NCBI RefSeq assembly: GCF_900162815.1
Contig: NZ_FUGD01000055.1
Coordinates: 1 to 64,000, forward strand
Length of the DNA stretch: 64,000 nucleotides
Direction: 5' to 3'
DNA from: Psychrobacter pasteurii
GTDB taxonomy: Bacteria > Pseudomonadota > Gammaproteobacteria > Pseudomonadales > Moraxellaceae
Part shown: piece by piece, positions 21,475 through 35,753 of the stretch
Layout of the letters: each line of letters opens with the position of its first letter
How positions within the stretch are numbered: position 1 is the stretch's first letter
Program-made: the position numbers and the translations under genes
Notes under the pieces: generated by a model
What the model saw: only the letters and a program-made list of their open reading frames with translations
Databases searched by the model: none
Told to the model about the DNA's origin: nothing

Positions 21475-23178
21475 ATGAAAATAAAGTCAGCTTTCCATGG
21501 AGTATCGCAAACCTCCCATAAATATACTTTGATACTTCTTTCAAGTAGCGTTCTAACGCTTATTGGCTGTCATTCGACCTCAACTACTCAGTTTGCTTCA
21601 AATCCTGCTCTTAAAAATGGTCCTTTAATTTCTTCTGCTGACTACCAAAAAAACATTCAACGTAATCAACAAAGCTATCAAAATCAGTTTAGTTCCCAGT
21701 CAGGGATTAATAATGATGAAGTAGCCAAGTCAGCACTTATAAAAGCGATAACCCAGCACCTGACTACACCTCATGTTGCCGTTAGTCAAAGCCGAGTTCA
21801 TGACTCCCCTTTTATAAATAAGGGCAGTATTGATGAAGGTTATCAAAGTGCATATGAGACGGTTCTAGATATAGCCATCCAAGAAGCCTATGAAGCAGAG
21901 AACCTTTTAGAATCAGAAGCTTATGCTCTGGAAGATGAAAGCTCTGAAGACTATAACCCTAATGAGTATAACTATGAAGACTATGATCCCTATGGTGAAT
22001 ACGAGGAGGACACAGATTATCAGCAGCTGATGGACACTTTGTATAAATGGTATAACCGCACGCCAGCACAGATTGAAGCCAGCAATTACTACTTCAATCA
22101 GAACATGAGATTAAATAAAATTAGCGAATTCGACCCTAATAATAAAAAAGTGAGTATGGTTTATAGCTATGATTTTGCTTCTCCCACAACTTACTACTCG
22201 ATACAGCTGCCTTTAGCATTGGATTTCAATCGCGCTGAGCTAACCTTAGATCCGAGTGCCTTATTGCCAATGGTAGCTTTAATACTTCCTGAGCACGCGC
22301 CTTTGCCTGAAGAGCTTGAGGCTACTACTGTGGCTTTTAAACTGCCGGAGCAGGTTGTTGAGCAAGTGCCGCCAAAAGTGATATACGACGCTTTTATTTC
22401 AGCCATTAGTTATAGTCTAAGCGAGCTTGAGCCGGCAAACTTCACAGCTTTGGATATTTCCAGAGATGATTATGCCAAAGAGGTAGGCGCTCATTCCGCA
22501 GTGAAGCTAAATCTAGATAGCAAGCAAACCGGTAAGCTGCTTGGTGTTATCCTCAAACACATGTCTAACACTCTTCAAGAGCATGTGGACCTGCGACCTG
22601 ATTTATATCCCAATTCAAGCCCAATTAAATTTGCTTTAGAAAACTGGCAGCAAACTAATAAAAAATTCCAAAGTGGTGATATGGGATCTTTGTTTCAGCT
22701 AATAGAAGCTGTTACCCCTTTGTCTTTTAATCAAAGTAATTATTACTATTTTGATGGCCGTGGAAAGCTAATAGCCTCTCAGTCCAGCACCTTAGCAGGA
22801 GGTGACTTTATGGGAGCAACGAAGACCTTATTAAGTCAGACCATCTATGATGAGCGCAGCTTTAAAGATCATCCATTAAGTGAGGTATATCAGCAATCCT
22901 TTGGACAACCTTTCACACAACAAAAGCCTGCCAGCGTCGATGGCAATGCTTGGATGAAAAAAACCCAAGACCGAAAAGATAAGTTAAATCAAGCGTATGC
23001 TGCGCGTAGTGAGTACGACAGTGAGGATGCTTTGTATGGTAGTGCGCCACAAGAGCCTATTGAAGACGAAGAATATCGACCTTCTATTAGAATTATCGAT
23101 TATGGCAATGTGAATGACTACGACAAGGAAGGTGAGGCGGGTTATGAATACAAATATGAGCGAAAAAACGCTGAATAA
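21475..23178 (+). CDS. large lipoprotein, unknown function (first of a pair)
   Basis: A 567-residue protein with a lipoprotein signal: basic start, hydrophobic segment at about 18-30, and lipobox LIGC (Cys about 32). The mature part has a very acidic, Tyr-rich stretch at about 140-185, and a central beta-rich domain (KVSMVYSYDFASPTTYYSIQLPLALDFNRAELTLDPSALLPMVA) resembling repeated strands of a carrier-type domain. It ends in a charged Arg/Asp/Glu/Tyr tail. The next gene encodes another large lipoprotein with a similar central layout, so the two may be distant paralogues acting together at the outer membrane. Function is unknown to me. Confidence 0.75.
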   Translation: MKIKSAFHGVSQTSHKYTLILLSSSVLTLIGCHSTSTTQFASNPALKNGPLISSADYQKNIQRNQQSYQNQFSSQSGINNDEVAKSALIKAITQHLTTPHVAVSQSRVHDSPFINKGSIDEGYQSAYETVLDIAIQEAYEAENLLESEAYALEDESSEDYNPNEYNYEDYDPYGEYEEDTDYQQLMDTLYKWYNRTPAQIEASNYYFNQNMRLNKISEFDPNNKKVSMVYSYDFASPTTYYSIQLPLALDFNRAELTLDPSALLPMVALILPEHAPLPEELEATTVAFKLPEQVVEQVPPKVIYDAFISAISYSLSELEPANFTALDISRDDYAKEVGAHSAVKLNLDSKQTGKLLGVILKHMSNTLQEHVDLRPDLYPNSSPIKFALENWQQTNKKFQSGDMGSLFQLIEAVTPLSFNQSNYYYFDGRGKLIASQSSTLAGGDFMGATKTLLSQTIYDERSFKDHPLSEVYQQSFGQPFTQQKPASVDGNAWMKKTQDRKDKLNQAYAARSEYDSEDALYGSAPQEPIEDEEYRPSIRIIDYGNVNDYDKEGEAGYEYKYERKNAE

Positions 23179-23218
23179 CCAACTCATAACCTCACATTTG
23201 ATACTCATAAGGATCTTC

Positions 23219-25117
23219 ATGAAAACCCTAAGTAAAAAACCTTACTTTTATAAAAAGAAAAACAAATTAGCTGCCTTGTCTTTAGCCATTCCTTTAGCGC
23301 TTAGTGCCTGTCAGGTAGCCCCTAGTAGCAATCAAAATGTAATTGCTTCTAAAATAAGCCAATTACCCGTCGAGCAGCAGTCTCAGATGGCCAAAGACAC
23401 TTTATTTGAGGCTCTAAAAAAGAAAAGTCGGAGTGATTATGCTTATCAAGTAAATGTATTAGGCTCTAATGAACAAAGAAGAGAGCGACTTTCCAATGCT
23501 ACGCCGCAACAGTTGGCGATGAGTGACAATCCAATCAATCATTGTGAACATGTTCATGATGAAGCTTACGTCGATTTGTTGCAGAGGGCAGAGCAATCGG
23601 GCCTGGAAATATATAATGCCAAATACTCCGCAGAAAGGCAGTCTATCAAGCAAGCCTATCAGCAGTGCGTTGCCGCTTTAGAGGCACCTTACTCACAAGA
23701 GTCTTATGAGCAGTGGTTACAAAAAGCACTTGAGCAAGCAAATATTGATTTGGCTAAGGCTGAAGCAGGTATTAAAGAGGAGGCTATTGAGGAGCAAGAT
23801 AGCTTGAATGAACAGGAGCTAACGGATGACTTTCAATCGCCAGATGAGGCTATTGAGGAGCAAGATAGCTTGAATGAACAGGAGCTAACGGATGACTTTC
23901 AATCGCCAGATACTGTTTCTCTTGATACAGTCTTTGAAGATATAGCTGAAAGTGTCTTACCAGGTTATGATGCCTCTCATACCAAACTTGATGCACGCAA
24001 AGCCAAGCTTTTAAATGCTTATTTATTAAACCCAACCAATCTTACTGCCTCTGGTGTGTATCGAGCTTCTAATGGCAAAGTGAGTATTATGCCGACTATT
24101 GCCTATCAAAGTCGCAATCTACAGCTACTAAACAGCCATTTTATTTATATGGATGCTAGACAAGGTGCGGTATACGTGTGGGCTGATACCTTTGCCTATC
24201 TTTTATCCTCTTCGATAGATCCAAATTTAGGTTTAACATTCAAAAACAAGTGGATAAAAATCAATATCAATGATGGCAGTCTACCAAAAAACTTCCTTCC
24301 AGATTTGCTAAAAGCTCATCTGTTGGCCAAAGATAAAATGCATGTCAGCACGAGTGCAGATCAATACCGTTTTATTTCTACCTCTGATCTGCAAAATAAT
24401 TCCCCCAAACCAGATACAAAGCATCAGCCTTACTTAAAAGATGCTTCGCTGATGATTGAGCGTAAGCTGACTAAGCAGCAATATGAGAAGGAAATACAAC
24501 TGTATCTCACCACTGTATATGATCAGATGACACAGAAATACCCTCAGCTGCTTGAGGTGAAAAACAGCAATGAAGAACAAAGCAGTACTGGGGAGAACAG
24601 CACTCAAACCCTTAGTAGCAAGTATATATTTACTCAAATTTTCAAAGCAATAGAAAAGTTAAAACAGGATAGCTCCTCATCAAAGCTAGAGGACTCTATT
24701 ACTACTAAGACAGTGGAAAGTAATCACGGTGAGGCGGCTAATGACAACAAGCCAAATATTGAGTATGCTGTTAAGGATGCTAAATTAGCAGAGCATGAAT
24801 GGCTGTGGCGTAATGTCTATGGGCTAGATAGTCAGCAACGTATCGTTTGGCAATTAGGACAACACCAGTTAGATTCAAATGCCAGTGCGCTTCATGGGTC
24901 AAATGATCTGTTAACTAGGGTGCGTTTAGAGGTATTGACTCGATATACCAAGGCTTCGGCTACTATTCCTATTTTTGAAGTATTGCCCACAGGAGCCTCA
25001 ATGCCTTCTAAGTCAAATAGTGTGGATATAAAAAACTATTTTGAAAACTTAAAGTTAAGTTATGACAAAGGAGAGGGAAGTGAGCAAGGGAAAGTCTTGT
25101 TTGAAACCCTAAAATAA
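23219..25117 (+). CDS. large lipoprotein with a 22-residue tandem duplication
   Basis: A 632-residue lipoprotein: basic N-terminus, hydrophobic segment and lipobox LSAC (Cys about 31). I chose the ATG at 23219 because AAGGATCT lies just upstream and the signal starts there; the open frame continues upstream into the previous gene. Residues about 188-231 are two identical 22-residue acidic units (EAIEEQDSLNEQELTDDFQSPD-type), identical at DNA level too. The C-terminal half has a Ser/Thr/Lys-rich linker and a final domain. It starts 40 bases after the preceding lipoprotein gene, so both form an operon closed by the terminator at 25141. Confidence 0.75.
   Translation: MKTLSKKPYFYKKKNKLAALSLAIPLALSACQVAPSSNQNVIASKISQLPVEQQSQMAKDTLFEALKKKSRSDYAYQVNVLGSNEQRRERLSNATPQQLAMSDNPINHCEHVHDEAYVDLLQRAEQSGLEIYNAKYSAERQSIKQAYQQCVAALEAPYSQESYEQWLQKALEQANIDLAKAEAGIKEEAIEEQDSLNEQELTDDFQSPDEAIEEQDSLNEQELTDDFQSPDTVSLDTVFEDIAESVLPGYDASHTKLDARKAKLLNAYLLNPTNLTASGVYRASNGKVSIMPTIAYQSRNLQLLNSHFIYMDARQGAVYVWADTFAYLLSSSIDPNLGLTFKNKWIKININDGSLPKNFLPDLLKAHLLAKDKMHVSTSADQYRFISTSDLQNNSPKPDTKHQPYLKDASLMIERKLTKQQYEKEIQLYLTTVYDQMTQKYPQLLEVKNSNEEQSSTGENSTQTLSSKYIFTQIFKAIEKLKQDSSSSKLEDSITTKTVESNHGEAANDNKPNIEYAVKDAKLAEHEWLWRNVYGLDSQQRIVWQLGQHQLDSNASALHGSNDLLTRVRLEVLTRYTKASATIPIFEVLPTGASMPSKSNSVDIKNYFENLKLSYDKGEGSEQGKVLFETLK
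23780..23911 (+). repeat. perfect 66-bp tandem duplication
   Basis: Units 23780-23845 and 23846-23911 appear identical base for base and keep the reading frame. The identity indicates a recent duplication, and the copy number is likely to vary between strains. Confidence 0.9.
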
Positions 25118-25383: not shown

Positions 25384-27051
25384 ATGAACAGTGCAATTGT
25401 ATTACTGTTGGGCGTCTTAGCCATGCTCGTCGGTTTTTTCTTTTATTCTAAATTTTTTGCCAAATATATTTTGGGGTTAGATAACTCAATACCTACTCCA
25501 GCACATACGATGAAGGATGGTATCGACTATGTTCCTACCAATAAGTATGTGTTATGGGGACACCATTTCACCTCAGTTGCAGGGGCAGCACCGATTATTG
25601 GTCCGGCCATTGCGGTTATCTGGGGTTGGGTGCCTGCGGTGCTTTGGGTAGTCCTCGGAACTATTTTTATGGCAGGTATTCATGATATGTCTGCTATTTG
25701 GGCCAGTATGCGCAATAAGGGTCAATCGATTGGCTCAATTGCCGGCTCAGTTATGGGTGGCCGAGTACGTACCTTGATGATGGTAGTGATTTTCTTACTG
25801 CTATTAATGGTAAACGCTGTATTCGGTGTCGTTATCGCCAACATGATGATCAAAACCCCTACGGCAGTTATTCCAGTTTGGGGCGCCTTAGTAGTTGCCT
25901 TTATCATTGGCCAGTGTATCTATCGCTTAAAGATGAATCTGGCTTTGGTTTCAGTCTTTGGGGTTGCTGCTTTATACGGTCTGATTTATCTAGGCACTTT
26001 AATGCCAGTGGTATTGCCTGAAACCATCTTCGGGTTGCCAGATAACGCGGTATGGATTTTATTCTTATTCATCTACGCAGCTGTGGCTTCGTTACTGCCT
26101 GTTTGGATGTTATTACAGCCTAGAGACTACATTAATGGTCTGCAGCTGTTTGTGGGGTTAATTTTATTATTTGGTGCCATCTTACTGGCGACACCAGATA
26201 TCGTGGCTCCAGCTATCAACCACAATTTACCTGCCAGCACACCGTCAATCATGCCATTATTGTTCGTAACGATTGCTTGTGGTGCTATCTCAGGATTCCA
26301 CGGATTGGTGTCTACGGGTACCACTTCTAAGCAAATCGACAAAGAAGAAGATGTGCGTTTTGTGGGTTACTTCGGTGCAGTGGGTGAAGGTCTATTAGCA
26401 CTAGGTGCGGTGTTAGCGACTACAGCAGGCTTTGCTAGCTTAGCTGAGTGGGAAGGCATCTATCAAAAGTTTGGTGACGGCTCAATTGGTGCTTTCATCG
26501 ACGGTGGTGCAACCATCTTAAATAATGGAATTGGCATCGAGCTTGTGTTATCACAAACGATATTGACCGTTATGGCAGCGTTATTCGCGGGCACCACAAT
26601 GGATACTGGGGTTCGTCTACAACGCTATATCTTCCAAGAGTTTGGTGATGTTTATAACTTACCTGTGTTGAAGAAAAGTGTGGTAGCGACCTTACTGGCT
26701 GTGGGTACCTGTTTGTTAATTGCCTTTGGGGCCGGTGGTATCGATGGATCTGGCGGTATGATCATTTGGCCACTATTTGGTACCACGAACCAGTTAATGG
26801 CTGCCTTAACCTTAATGATTGTGACAGTGATTTTATTACGCAAAGGTAAAACCGTTTGGTACACCTTAGCGCCACTGACTTTCTTATTGGTAATGGCGGT
26901 ATTTGCCTTAATCCTTCAGTTGAAAACTTTCTATACTGATGGTAACTGGCTGCTAATCGTGATGGATATCATCATTTTAATCGCAACCATTATGGTTACC
27001 TTTGAGAGCTTCTCTGTCTTACGCCGTGAGTGGAAGCAACATAGAAGTTAG
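25384..27051 (+). CDS. cstA: CstA-family carbon starvation / pyruvate transporter
   Basis: A 555-residue integral membrane protein with many hydrophobic segments throughout. Family signatures are DGIDYVPTNKYVLWGHHFTSVAGAAPIIGPA, DMSAIWASMRNKGQSIGSIAG, ISGFHGLVSTGTTSKQI and the C-terminal WPLFGTTNQLMAALTL. CstA proteins import pyruvate or peptides; this is the shorter form (E. coli CstA is about 700 residues). CAAGGAGTG precedes the ATG. The two genes that follow (a CC-tail protein and an ArsA-like ATPase) are in the same direction but beyond a strong terminator. E. coli CstA works with the small protein YbdD; no YbdD homologue is present here. Confidence 0.93.
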   Translation: MNSAIVLLLGVLAMLVGFFFYSKFFAKYILGLDNSIPTPAHTMKDGIDYVPTNKYVLWGHHFTSVAGAAPIIGPAIAVIWGWVPAVLWVVLGTIFMAGIHDMSAIWASMRNKGQSIGSIAGSVMGGRVRTLMMVVIFLLLLMVNAVFGVVIANMMIKTPTAVIPVWGALVVAFIIGQCIYRLKMNLALVSVFGVAALYGLIYLGTLMPVVLPETIFGLPDNAVWILFLFIYAAVASLLPVWMLLQPRDYINGLQLFVGLILLFGAILLATPDIVAPAINHNLPASTPSIMPLLFVTIACGAISGFHGLVSTGTTSKQIDKEEDVRFVGYFGAVGEGLLALGAVLATTAGFASLAEWEGIYQKFGDGSIGAFIDGGATILNNGIGIELVLSQTILTVMAALFAGTTMDTGVRLQRYIFQEFGDVYNLPVLKKSVVATLLAVGTCLLIAFGAGGIDGSGGMIIWPLFGTTNQLMAALTLMIVTVILLRKGKTVWYTLAPLTFLLVMAVFALILQLKTFYTDGNWLLIVMDIIILIATIMVTFESFSVLRREWKQHRS

Positions 27052-27078: not shown

Positions 27079-27118
27079 AAAACGCTAACTTCGGTTGGCG
27101 TTTTTTTATGAAGACTTA
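27079..27118 (+). terminator. terminator after cstA
   Basis: AACGCTAAC, a TTCG loop, GTTGGCGTT and seven T bases. It separates cstA from the next gene, unless read through. Confidence 0.85.
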
Positions 27119-27182: not shown

Positions 27183-27449
27183 ATGAGTAAGGATCAGTCA
27201 CTATTTAGTCGATTTGTGGAAGGTTTAAACGAGTTTTATCATGCCCCTTATCGCCAGACATTGGCAAGAGCAGCGCGTGATGAAGAAGATTTATTCATGC
27301 TACTGCTATTTTCAGAAAGCCTAGGCATTGATAATCCCGCCAGCTTTTATACCTTAGAGCTACAGCCCATATTTTTAGAAAAATTCCACGAATGGCACTT
27401 ACGTATGGGCATGCCTCGCTGTCCACTACAACACGGCGGCTGTTGCTAA
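27183..27449 (+). CDS. cory-CC-star-type small protein
   Basis: An 88-residue soluble protein ending CPLQHGGCC, i.e. with the C-terminal Cys-Cys that defines the cory-CC-star proteins known from Corynebacterium and other bacteria next to CstA and an ATPase. The core FYHAPYRQTLARAARDEEDLFMLLLFSESLGIDNPASFYTLEL is mostly helical. The CC ending parallels YbdD, the small partner of E. coli CstA, which as I recall also ends in Cys-Cys. AAAGGGAGAGG gives a strong ribosome binding site. It is 131 bases after cstA and 48 before the ATPase. A role as accessory protein to CstA is an inference. Confidence 0.75.
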   Translation: MSKDQSLFSRFVEGLNEFYHAPYRQTLARAARDEEDLFMLLLFSESLGIDNPASFYTLELQPIFLEKFHEWHLRMGMPRCPLQHGGCC

Positions 27450-27497
27450 AAGATGGGCACACACAGAGACATTAAAAAGACTTAAAGAAGACCAACT

Positions 27498-28502
27498 ATG
27501 AAAACACTATCAAGCCTAGTCAAGCAGCTACAGAACACGCCGATAAAATTTGTCGGCGGCAAAGGCGGGGTGGGTAAGACCACCACTGCGGCAGCTTTGG
27601 CCTCTCAGTTTGCTGAGCAGCATCAAAAAACACTGGTTATCTCTACCGATCCGGCGCATAGCTTGGGTGATGTGTTTGATATGAATTTAAAAAAAAGCTC
27701 TGCTAAAAATATGCCCGTCGCATTAACTGAGAGCTTGGATGCGCTAGAGTTAGATCCTGATCTTATTATCGATGAGCATTTTGCTAGGGTTGAGCGAACC
27801 ATCAGCAGCTACGCCAACCCGGATATGATGCAAAAAATTAGGGAGCATCTGCAACTGTCAAAAAGTGCACCAGGAGCGCAAGAGGCAGCTATGTTAGAGG
27901 CCATTTGTCGTTATTTGGTCGACAGTGTAGAAAAAGGCATTTATCAGCACATAATTTTTGATACAGCGCCGACCGGACATACTCTAAGACTTCTCATGCT
28001 TCCTGAGATGATGGAGGCTTGGACCGATGGGCTACTTACCCAGCAGCGGCGCCAGGCCAAGTTAAAAGGAGCAGCAGATAACTTTGCCACCAAAAAGTCT
28101 GGCCTAACCAACCCTTTTGAGGACGCAAAACCTGTCGATAAGTGGCAGCAAGCGGTCGATGTGCTAAATGCCCGCAAGAACTTGTTTAAAAGAGCAGGGG
28201 AGCTGCTGCATGATAGACAAAAAACCGCAGTGGTTTTAGTAATGACCGCAGATAACTTGCCCATTGAAGAGACGCGCCGAGCTGTAAATCAGCTAAAAGA
28301 AGCCAAATTAGCGCCTGCAGCCTTAATGGTGAATCAGCTGATTCAAGCTGAGCAAAGTGATGAGTTTTGGCAAAATAGAGCAGTGCGCCAACAAAGCCTG
28401 CTAAAAGACATTCAGCAGCACTTTGTTGATTATCCTATCTATGGCGTTTATCTCCAGCCCTCTGATGTGCGCGGAAGACAGGCGCTTGCTAAGCTCGACT
28501 AA
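27498..28502 (+). CDS. ArsA/Get3-type ATPase
   Basis: A 334-residue P-loop ATPase of the ArsA/TRC40 class. The deviant Walker A is GGKGGVGKTTTAAALA (about 20-35), the A-loop is STDPAHSLGDVF, and FDTAPTGHTLRLLMLPE (about 154-170) is the switch region. ArsA drives arsenite export and Get3 carries tail-anchored proteins. No arsB, arsC or arsR is nearby and I see no Cys triad typical of ArsA, so arsenic resistance is unlikely. The gene follows the CC-tail protein and probably forms a unit with it. It converges on the GTPase gene, with a shared terminator over both stop codons. Confidence 0.85.
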   Translation: MKTLSSLVKQLQNTPIKFVGGKGGVGKTTTAAALASQFAEQHQKTLVISTDPAHSLGDVFDMNLKKSSAKNMPVALTESLDALELDPDLIIDEHFARVERTISSYANPDMMQKIREHLQLSKSAPGAQEAAMLEAICRYLVDSVEKGIYQHIIFDTAPTGHTLRLLMLPEMMEAWTDGLLTQQRRQAKLKGAADNFATKKSGLTNPFEDAKPVDKWQQAVDVLNARKNLFKRAGELLHDRQKTAVVLVMTADNLPIEETRRAVNQLKEAKLAPAALMVNQLIQAEQSDEFWQNRAVRQQSLLKDIQQHFVDYPIYGVYLQPSDVRGRQALAKLD

Positions 28503-34529: not shown

Positions 34530-35753
34530 TTAGAAACCATCTGCCGGTACAAACACTTGACCAACCATAATACGGCGAGCAGATCGGCTCATCGATACTT
34601 TTTTGGCCTGCCAGCGACCATCAACGTGCTCTGTTTTACCGCCCACAAGTAGCGTACCTGACGGATGACCAAAACGAACTTCTGATAAGCTACCACCGCC
34701 AGCCGCTTTATTCACCAGCGTGCCTTGGGTGGTTGCTGCAGCTGCAATGGCAACCGCTGCTGTCCCCATCATCGCATGGTGTAGCTGCCCCATACTCATG
34801 GCGCGCACCACCAAATCAATATCCTTTTCATCAACTGCCTTACCACTTGAAGCTGTATAACTTTGTGCTGGGGCTACCCAAGCAATCTTTGGAATATGCT
34901 GGCTTTTTTCTGCTTCCTTCACATCCTCAAAGATGCCCATTGCCACGCCGCCTTTGGCACGGATTTTCTCAAGCTTGGCTTGTAGCTCTGGATTGCTATT
35001 CACATCAGGCTGTAGCTCAGTACCTGTAAAGCCCAAATCTTCAGCATTCATAAAGATGGTTGGGATACCCGCATTGATAAACGTTGCTTGAACATTATCT
35101 TTATCCAGGTCGCAACCGGCCACATCAAAATCATCAACCAGATTTCCGGTCGGGAACATGGCACTTGAGGCATCAACTGGATCGATAAATTCAATTTTGA
35201 CCTCAGCGGCAGGGAAGGTAACCCCATCTAACTCAAAGTCGCCGGTTTCTTGAACTTGGACATTACCTTGTTCATCTTGATAAACAGGTACGTGAGCGAC
35301 AATGGTTTTACTGATGTTTTGCTGCCAAATGTTAACTTCACAGATACCGGTCTCGACACTGGCGGCGACTTTATCTGCATCGACCAGACCCATGTTAATG
35401 GCACAAGCTCCCACAGCAGCGGTTAGGTTGCCGCAGTTACCCGCCCAATCAATCATCGGCTTGCTAATATTAACTTGTCCAAATAGATAGTTCACATCAT
35501 GACCGTCCTTATCAGATTCGGACAAAATCACAGTTTTTGAGGTGCTTGAGGAGCCATTGCCTAAGCCGTCTATTTGTTTGCCATAAGGGTCTGGACTACC
35601 GATAACACGTAATAAGAAGTTGTCTCGAGCGCTACCGGGCTGCTGACAACGCTCAGGTAGGTCATTTAGGCTAAAAAACACCCCTTTTGAGGTGCCGCCA
35701 CGCATATAGGTGGCTGATACAGGAACTTGTGGTTCGAATTTTGGTTGAGACAT
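34530..35753 (-). CDS. prpF: 2-methylaconitate cis-trans isomerase
   Basis: A 407-residue PrpF. It converts the trans-2-methylaconitate made by AcnD to the cis isomer, so that aconitase can finish the methylcitrate cycle. Hallmarks are MRGGTSKGVFF at residues 18-28, GNCGNLTAAVGA (about 100-111) and the C-terminal QLHHAMMGTAAVAIAAAATTQGT. The length is usual for the family (about 395). It is the last gene of prpB-prpC-acnD-prpF, but a strong terminator-like hairpin (35838-35878) lies between acnD and prpF, so its expression may be lower than that of the upstream genes. Confidence 0.95.
   Translation of the reverse strand: MSQPKFEPQVPVSATYMRGGTSKGVFFSLNDLPERCQQPGSARDNFLLRVIGSPDPYGKQIDGLGNGSSSTSKTVILSESDKDGHDVNYLFGQVNISKPMIDWAGNCGNLTAAVGACAINMGLVDADKVAASVETGICEVNIWQQNISKTIVAHVPVYQDEQGNVQVQETGDFELDGVTFPAAEVKIEFIDPVDASSAMFPTGNLVDDFDVAGCDLDKDNVQATFINAGIPTIFMNAEDLGFTGTELQPDVNSNPELQAKLEKIRAKGGVAMGIFEDVKEAEKSQHIPKIAWVAPAQSYTASSGKAVDEKDIDLVVRAMSMGQLHHAMMGTAAVAIAAAATTQGTLVNKAAGGGSLSEVRFGHPSGTLLVGGKTEHVDGRWQAKKVSMSRSARRIMVGQVFVPADGF

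Follow-up and report, generated by a model that had tools for sequence, protein, structure and literature searches.

A conserved Cys-Cys-tailed protein encoded between a short CstA transporter and a single-domain ArsA/Get3-type ATPase in Psychrobacter pasteurii and its relatives

In Escherichia coli, the genes for the CstA-family transporters CstA and BtsT each precede one for a small protein with two cysteines at its end, YbdD and YjiX, respectively. An earlier note on the DNA analyzed here gave such an ending for YbdD, and rightly so: the C terminus is RCC in E. coli, as it is in the paralogue YjiX. In CstA-dependent pyruvate uptake, deletion of ybdD leaves 20% of the wild-type level and deletion of cstA leaves 13% (PMC5847655), and both E. 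coli transporters use the proton gradient as their driving force (PMC7730263). Another arrangement, the cstA-cstX-arsA cluster, was described by Castillo and Saier in 2010 (PMC2963123). Among the members of cluster 18 in that paper are Psychrobacter arcticus, Psychrobacter sp. PRwf-1, Idiomarina, and Pseudomonas stutzeri; the ArsA homologue has a single domain of about 330 amino acids (aa), CstX has about 90 aa and is described as a single-TMS protein that is never found without cstA, and a cysteine tail is not mentioned in the part available.

The stretch that we analyzed, called the window below, comprises 64,000 nucleotides of Psychrobacter pasteurii. It contains the cstA-cstX-arsA layout, that is, cstA, a small gene about 90 codons long, and a gene for a single-domain ArsA homologue next to one another, without ars genes, as follows.

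25384..27051, + strand: cstA, short form, 555 aa (PF02554, 436.9 bits), a member of the CC-star clade in the CstA tree
27079..27104, + strand: intrinsic-terminator stem-loop with a UUCG loop followed by a T run, in the gap separating cstA from the CC-star gene
27183..27449, + strand: CC-star gene (cory-CC-star), 88 aa, predicted two-helix protein (NF041419, 127.5 bits)
27387..27398, + strand: codons for H69-E-W-H72 of CC-star, within F-H-x-W-H, invariant in three phyla
27441..27446, + strand: codons for Cys87-Cys88, the C-terminal end of CC-star; CC is kept and the codons vary
27498..28502, + strand: single-domain TRC40/GET3/ArsA-type ATPase, 334 aa (TIGR00345, 239.6 bits)
27555..27584, + strand: ATPase P-loop GGKGGVGKTT, with conservation of 97% or more across 45 sequences

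The earlier note had placed a Cys-Cys protein between cstA and an ArsA/Get3-type ATPase without arsenic genes around it. The protein indeed ends in HGGCC followed by the stop codon, and no arsenic-resistance family was found among ten proteins neighboring the trio. Like the E. coli systems, the trio consists of a CstA-family transporter and then a small Cys-Cys-ending protein, and, like btsT-yjiX, it has a SIMIBI NTPase next in line (YjiA in E. coli). Unlike the trio, the E. coli systems have a long CstA (about 700 aa), a PF04328 small protein, and a COG0523 GTPase. Elsewhere in the window, a 66-bp unit, DEAIEEQDSLNEQELTDDFQSP, is repeated 2.1 times with 98% identity at positions 23776-23911, inside a 667-aa open frame (23114-25117) whose product matches no Pfam family. 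A PrpF-family gene (34533-35753; PF04303, 481.7 bits) is encoded on the opposite strand some 6 kb downstream of the trio, with long open frames after it.

Size, position, and organisms indicate that CC-star most likely corresponds to CstX in the 2010 paper. It differs from CstX as published there in that it scores as soluble, by hydropathy only, lies away from cstA in one gammaproteobacterial group, and has an invariant tail. The association is also not specific to Corynebacterium, from which the earlier note knew it, since the published table of the cstA-cstX-arsA association already includes Psychrobacter. A full-text literature search found no paper naming "cory-CC-star." The trio itself is thus already known, and its functional link is solid at the level of sequence; what is new here is the pairing with CstA clades, the unlinked group, the Psychrobacter terminator, and a cysteine tail that is invariant and in places expanded.

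To compare loci, we used a genome-contig scan that gave 80 loci (the best-scoring 80 of at least 534 confirmed relatives), which became 87 with seven others, the window's own among them, and 98 with 11 more from a Campylobacterota search; a twelfth, L204, duplicates L066. Because Psychrobacter accounts for 42 of the 80 scan loci, the locus counts are not independent observations. Across the 98 loci, which include the best 80 of at least 534 relatives, the ATPase gene adjoins the CC-star gene in every case, as an obligate pair, and cstA does so in 83. The trio was seen in Pseudomonadota, Campylobacterota, and Bacillota, and none of the viral contigs yielded a CC-star. This arrangement is far above chance, because it recurs in three phyla and 87 of 87 tails retain the CC while its codons vary.

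Outside Psychrobacter, the CC-star and arsA genes frequently overlap, typically by 10 nt. A terminator downstream of cstA and ahead of the CC-star gene was detected in 41 loci, the window included, all of them in Psychrobacter (nearly all loci of the genus), and in 0 of 240 shuffled gaps that served as a control. Because this terminator separates cstA from the CC-star gene, the trio in Psychrobacter is not a simple operon. The two genes remain adjacent in this genus despite the conserved stem-loop at 27079-27104. Two loci deserve separate mention. On a Cytobacillus plasmid, an additional 95-aa gene of unknown type separates cstA from the CC-star gene (L007:5675-5962). The CC-star and CstA of L066 (contig DDHL01000117.1), a record named Campylobacteraceae, are unusually near the Gamma- and Betaproteobacteria versions (68% identity to the window), making it a candidate for transfer or contamination.

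The CC-star protein of the window matched NF041419 (CC_star_Cory) over profile positions 2 to 80, above the curated cut-off of 80 bits. The earlier emphasis on the terminal cysteines is borne out by their conservation: CC was present at the C terminus of all 87 CC-star proteins (the best 80 of at least 534, plus 7) and of all 98 once Campylobacterota were added, and both codons switch between TGC and TGT in overlapping and nonoverlapping loci alike. The idea that overlap with the arsA start forces the CC was ruled out, as the tail is also kept in loci without overlap. Tails in Campylobacterota read GCC, PCxCC, PCLNCC, or PCxCCC, most of them expanded. F68, H69, W71, H72, G76, C87, and C88 are invariant in all 59 aligned CC-star sequences from three phyla. 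AlphaFold2 predicted helices at residues 2-46 and 52-74 and a loose tail (pLDDT 81), with a helix packing that is not to be trusted because pTM is only 0.45, and this model had no fold match in the PDB. Our search found no solved structures related to CstA, CC-star, or YbdD. The maximum 19-residue Kyte-Doolittle mean was 1.09 in the window protein and at most 1.54 among 87 relatives; by hydropathy only, CC-star seems to lack a transmembrane-grade helix and scores as soluble.

The 334-aa ATPase was assigned to the TRC40/GET3/ArsA family from its scores against TIGR00345 (cut-off, 135) and PF02374 (227.8 bits). It consists of one domain and, with 154.5 bits against TIGR04291, stays below the cut-off of 650 for two-domain ArsA. 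Like the ArsA pump ATPase, it belongs to superfamily PF02374 and has conserved P-loop and switch motifs; unlike ArsA, it is a one-domain protein without arsenic genes nearby, and its alignment has no conserved cysteine column, the arsenite-binding cysteines being absent. With Get3/TRC40 it shares a single domain, a length of about 330 aa, and a similar predicted fold. The AlphaFold2 model (pLDDT 90) had Methanothermobacter thermautotrophicus TRC40 (3zq6) as its best PDB match, and the closest solved structures were archaeal TRC40 and Get3, eukaryotic TRC40/Get3 included. It differs from Get3/TRC40 in its linkage to a transporter, in lacking the CxxC zinc motif of the Get3 dimer interface (0 of 85 ATPases), and possibly in a more polar stretch at the position matching the client-binding insert (mean hydropathy −1.19 versus −0.63 in M. 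thermautotrophicus TRC40, the single yardstick). The ATPase fits the canonical form of neither ArsA nor Get3, and the earlier view that it is not an arsenic gene is supported. Among 249 Pseudomonadota, intact single-domain TIGR00345 ATPases over the cut-off occurred only in the four CC-star genomes; the other matches over the cut-off were two-domain ArsA proteins or, in one genome, fragments.

The earlier note had named frequent occurrence of the Cys-Cys gene without cstA as evidence against its reading. With respect to adjacency, such loci exist: CC-star and its ATPase lie apart from cstA in 15 of the 98 loci (including the best 80 of at least 534 relatives). This counts against the reading only in part, because 9 of the 13 genomes with an unlinked CC-star encode a short CstA of the matching type at another site. 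One of the 13 has only a long CstA, and a CstA search of another three found none; because these four records are metagenome-assembled genomes, the missing short CstA is weak evidence. Most unlinked pairs (for example, L063, L065, and L072) lie at the end of a block of genes that, reading the names from the sequence, we take to be smpB, in some cases an NSS-type transporter gene, ratA, and rnfH, a placement seen in one group of Gammaproteobacteria. We considered the NSS transporter as an alternative client at these loci and rejected it, as it is part of the smpB-ratA-rnfH block and missing in some.

We then aligned 88 CstAs and built a tree with FastTree. One clade (support, 0.993) comprises 34 CC-star-linked CstAs, 8 from genomes with an unlinked CC-star, and the CstA of genome G015, and another (support, 1.0) comprises the 26 CstAs of the YbdD type. 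CC-star goes with the short CstA clade and YbdD with the long one; partner type follows CstA clade, a stronger pattern than the earlier note expected and one that holds at a distance from cstA. G015 is the sole exception, having a CC-clade CstA, no CC-star even at an E value of 10, and no ATPase over the TIGR00345 cut-off. In the 249-genome sample, the 4 CC-star genomes are among the 5 with a CC-clade CstA (hypergeometric p = 3e-8, uncorrected for kinship). In a further clade of 11 CstAs, mainly of family f30, neither partner is present in the genome, and no evident partner gene was found downstream of cstA; because this related clade has neither, CstA as a family does not need CC-star or YbdD. 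A search for the partner site in CstA itself yielded no candidate that held up. The window CstA has the motif CGAxSGFH (PF02554), whose Cys and His are present in 88 of 88 aligned CstAs, and partner-less clades have the same motif, which rules it out. A clade-specific cysteine (C443 of L013) is found in 42 of 43 CC-clade CstAs and is absent in several Campylobacterota and Cytobacillus.

Per genome, the mutual exclusion of ybdD and CC-star that the earlier note had proposed to test does not hold: 4 of 27 CC-star genomes also carry YbdD, each copy beside a long CstA, which is about the background rate of 41 in 249 genomes (Fisher p = 1.0). Co-occurrence in one operon, which the note would have counted against itself, was not seen, ybdD being near none of the 98 CC-star loci (including the best 80 of at least 534 relatives). 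Exclusion therefore operates per operon and not per genome, because each partner accompanies its own CstA. The genome of the window has no Sel_put/YbdD-type protein, and the control genome, Corynebacterium glutamicum, has a YbdD-type protein and no CC-star.

Outside the tail, we detected no similarity between CC-star and YbdD, whose own tails are CC or, in two genomes, CPC; in this the earlier judgment that the rest is not alike stands. The window CC-star had no Pfam match, PF04328 (YbdD/Sel_put) included, at E values up to 1. Both families are small, paired with CstA, and collinear in G-x-P ... F-[HF] ... terminal C-C, as would be expected if they were very distant homologues with an inherited rather than convergent tail. 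We regard this as rather unlikely: the profiles did not match significantly (probability about 1%), and the score of the real YbdD alignment was reached by 45 of 150 column-shuffled versions in which the CC was retained. Because the proteins are only 65 to 90 aa long, undetected homology does not prove independent origin. The convergence of CstA accessory proteins suggested in the earlier note is accordingly plausible, its independent-origin part being unproven.

We put at about even the chance that the trio forms one transport system, in which a short CstA, a CC-star accessory subunit, and a dedicated ATPase would act together through the thiol tail. The short-clade CstA would be the transporter, its substrate probably pyruvate or a related small molecule, and CC-star (CstX) would be the small soluble two-helix subunit of this clade, as YbdD would be for the long clade. 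We infer a complex in which an ATPase dimer would bind CC-star and ATP hydrolysis would either load it onto CstA or release it from CstA, a step that would set transport activity; the C-terminal cysteines may provide the functional handle, through soft-metal binding or a reversible thiol contact. Several observations argue for this model. The ATPase accompanies CC-star in 98 of 98 loci (the best 80 of at least 534, plus 18), often with a 10-nt overlap; CstA clades split by partner; cysteines are retained or gained in the tails; among the 249 Pseudomonadota, intact single-domain TIGR00345 ATPases over the cut-off are confined to CC-star genomes; no CC-star has a transmembrane-grade helix (maximum, 1.54); and the analogous YbdD is required in E. 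coli CstA-dependent pyruvate uptake (PMC5847655). Against it stand the many YbdD-type CstA loci, the majority, that manage without a neighboring NTPase, the related CstA clade (mainly f30) lacking both partners, G015 with its CC-clade CstA and neither CC-star nor a matching ATPase, and the unlinked genomes without CstA (3 of 13) or with long CstA only (1 of 13).

Two other roles for the ATPase seem improbable to us to a similar degree. It might energize transport through CstX/CC-star, so that a proton symporter would become a pump powered by ATP, on the model of ArsA and ArsB; Castillo and Saier proposed this on the same gene association and mirrored trees (PMC2963123), and the ArsA/ArsB precedent favors it. 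However, the E. coli CstA and BtsT are proton driven (PMC7730263) and have no ATPase of the ArsA/Get3 kind encoded alongside, and the ATPase of the trio has one domain only and none of the arsenite-site cysteines.

The trio might instead handle metal, with CC-star as a carrier that the SIMIBI-class ATPase (compare YjiA and CooC) would load, or from which it would load CstA; candidate ligands would be the invariant H69, H72, C87, and C88 and the CxCC of Campylobacterota. Expansion of the tail to CxCC and CxCCC and the invariance of F-H-x-W-H fit this reading, as does the position of YjiX next to the COG0523 GTPase YjiA, whose family carries a CXCC motif that putatively binds metal. Of 30 Sel_put loci examined, 8 have YjiA-like genes close to ybdD; together with YjiA beside YjiX, these make a partial parallel to CC-star and its ATPase, one absent from most ybdD loci. 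That lack of linkage argues against metal handling, as does the ATPase without any conserved cysteine, and we know of no metal requirement of CstA. Least probable is a Get3-like targeting factor that inserts CstA or another membrane protein with CC-star as adaptor, since, for all the nearness of archaeal and eukaryotic TRC40/Get3 structures, the CxxC zinc motif is missing in 85 of 85 ATPases, the insert stretch is more polar than in one archaeal TRC40 (−1.19 versus −0.63), and CC-star has no tail anchor.

Returning to the single transport system, the comparison with YbdD matters because in E. coli the small partner is required for full pyruvate uptake. The two partner types, each with its own CstA clade and nothing but the cysteine tail in common, offer a clean comparison; provided that the tail does the work, an identical two-residue change should inactivate the CC-star and YbdD systems alike. 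If CstX is CC-star, the rule in the 2010 paper that CstX never occurs apart from cstA is corrected. We consider it possible, though improbable, that YbdD and CC-star are unrelated families of small cytosolic proteins whose cysteine tails evolved independently for different CstA clades, with a SIMIBI NTPase, either an ArsA/Get3-type ATPase or a YjiA-type GTPase, working on both tails. If true, this would point to a general thiol- or metal-based, nucleotide-driven switch of CstA transporters.
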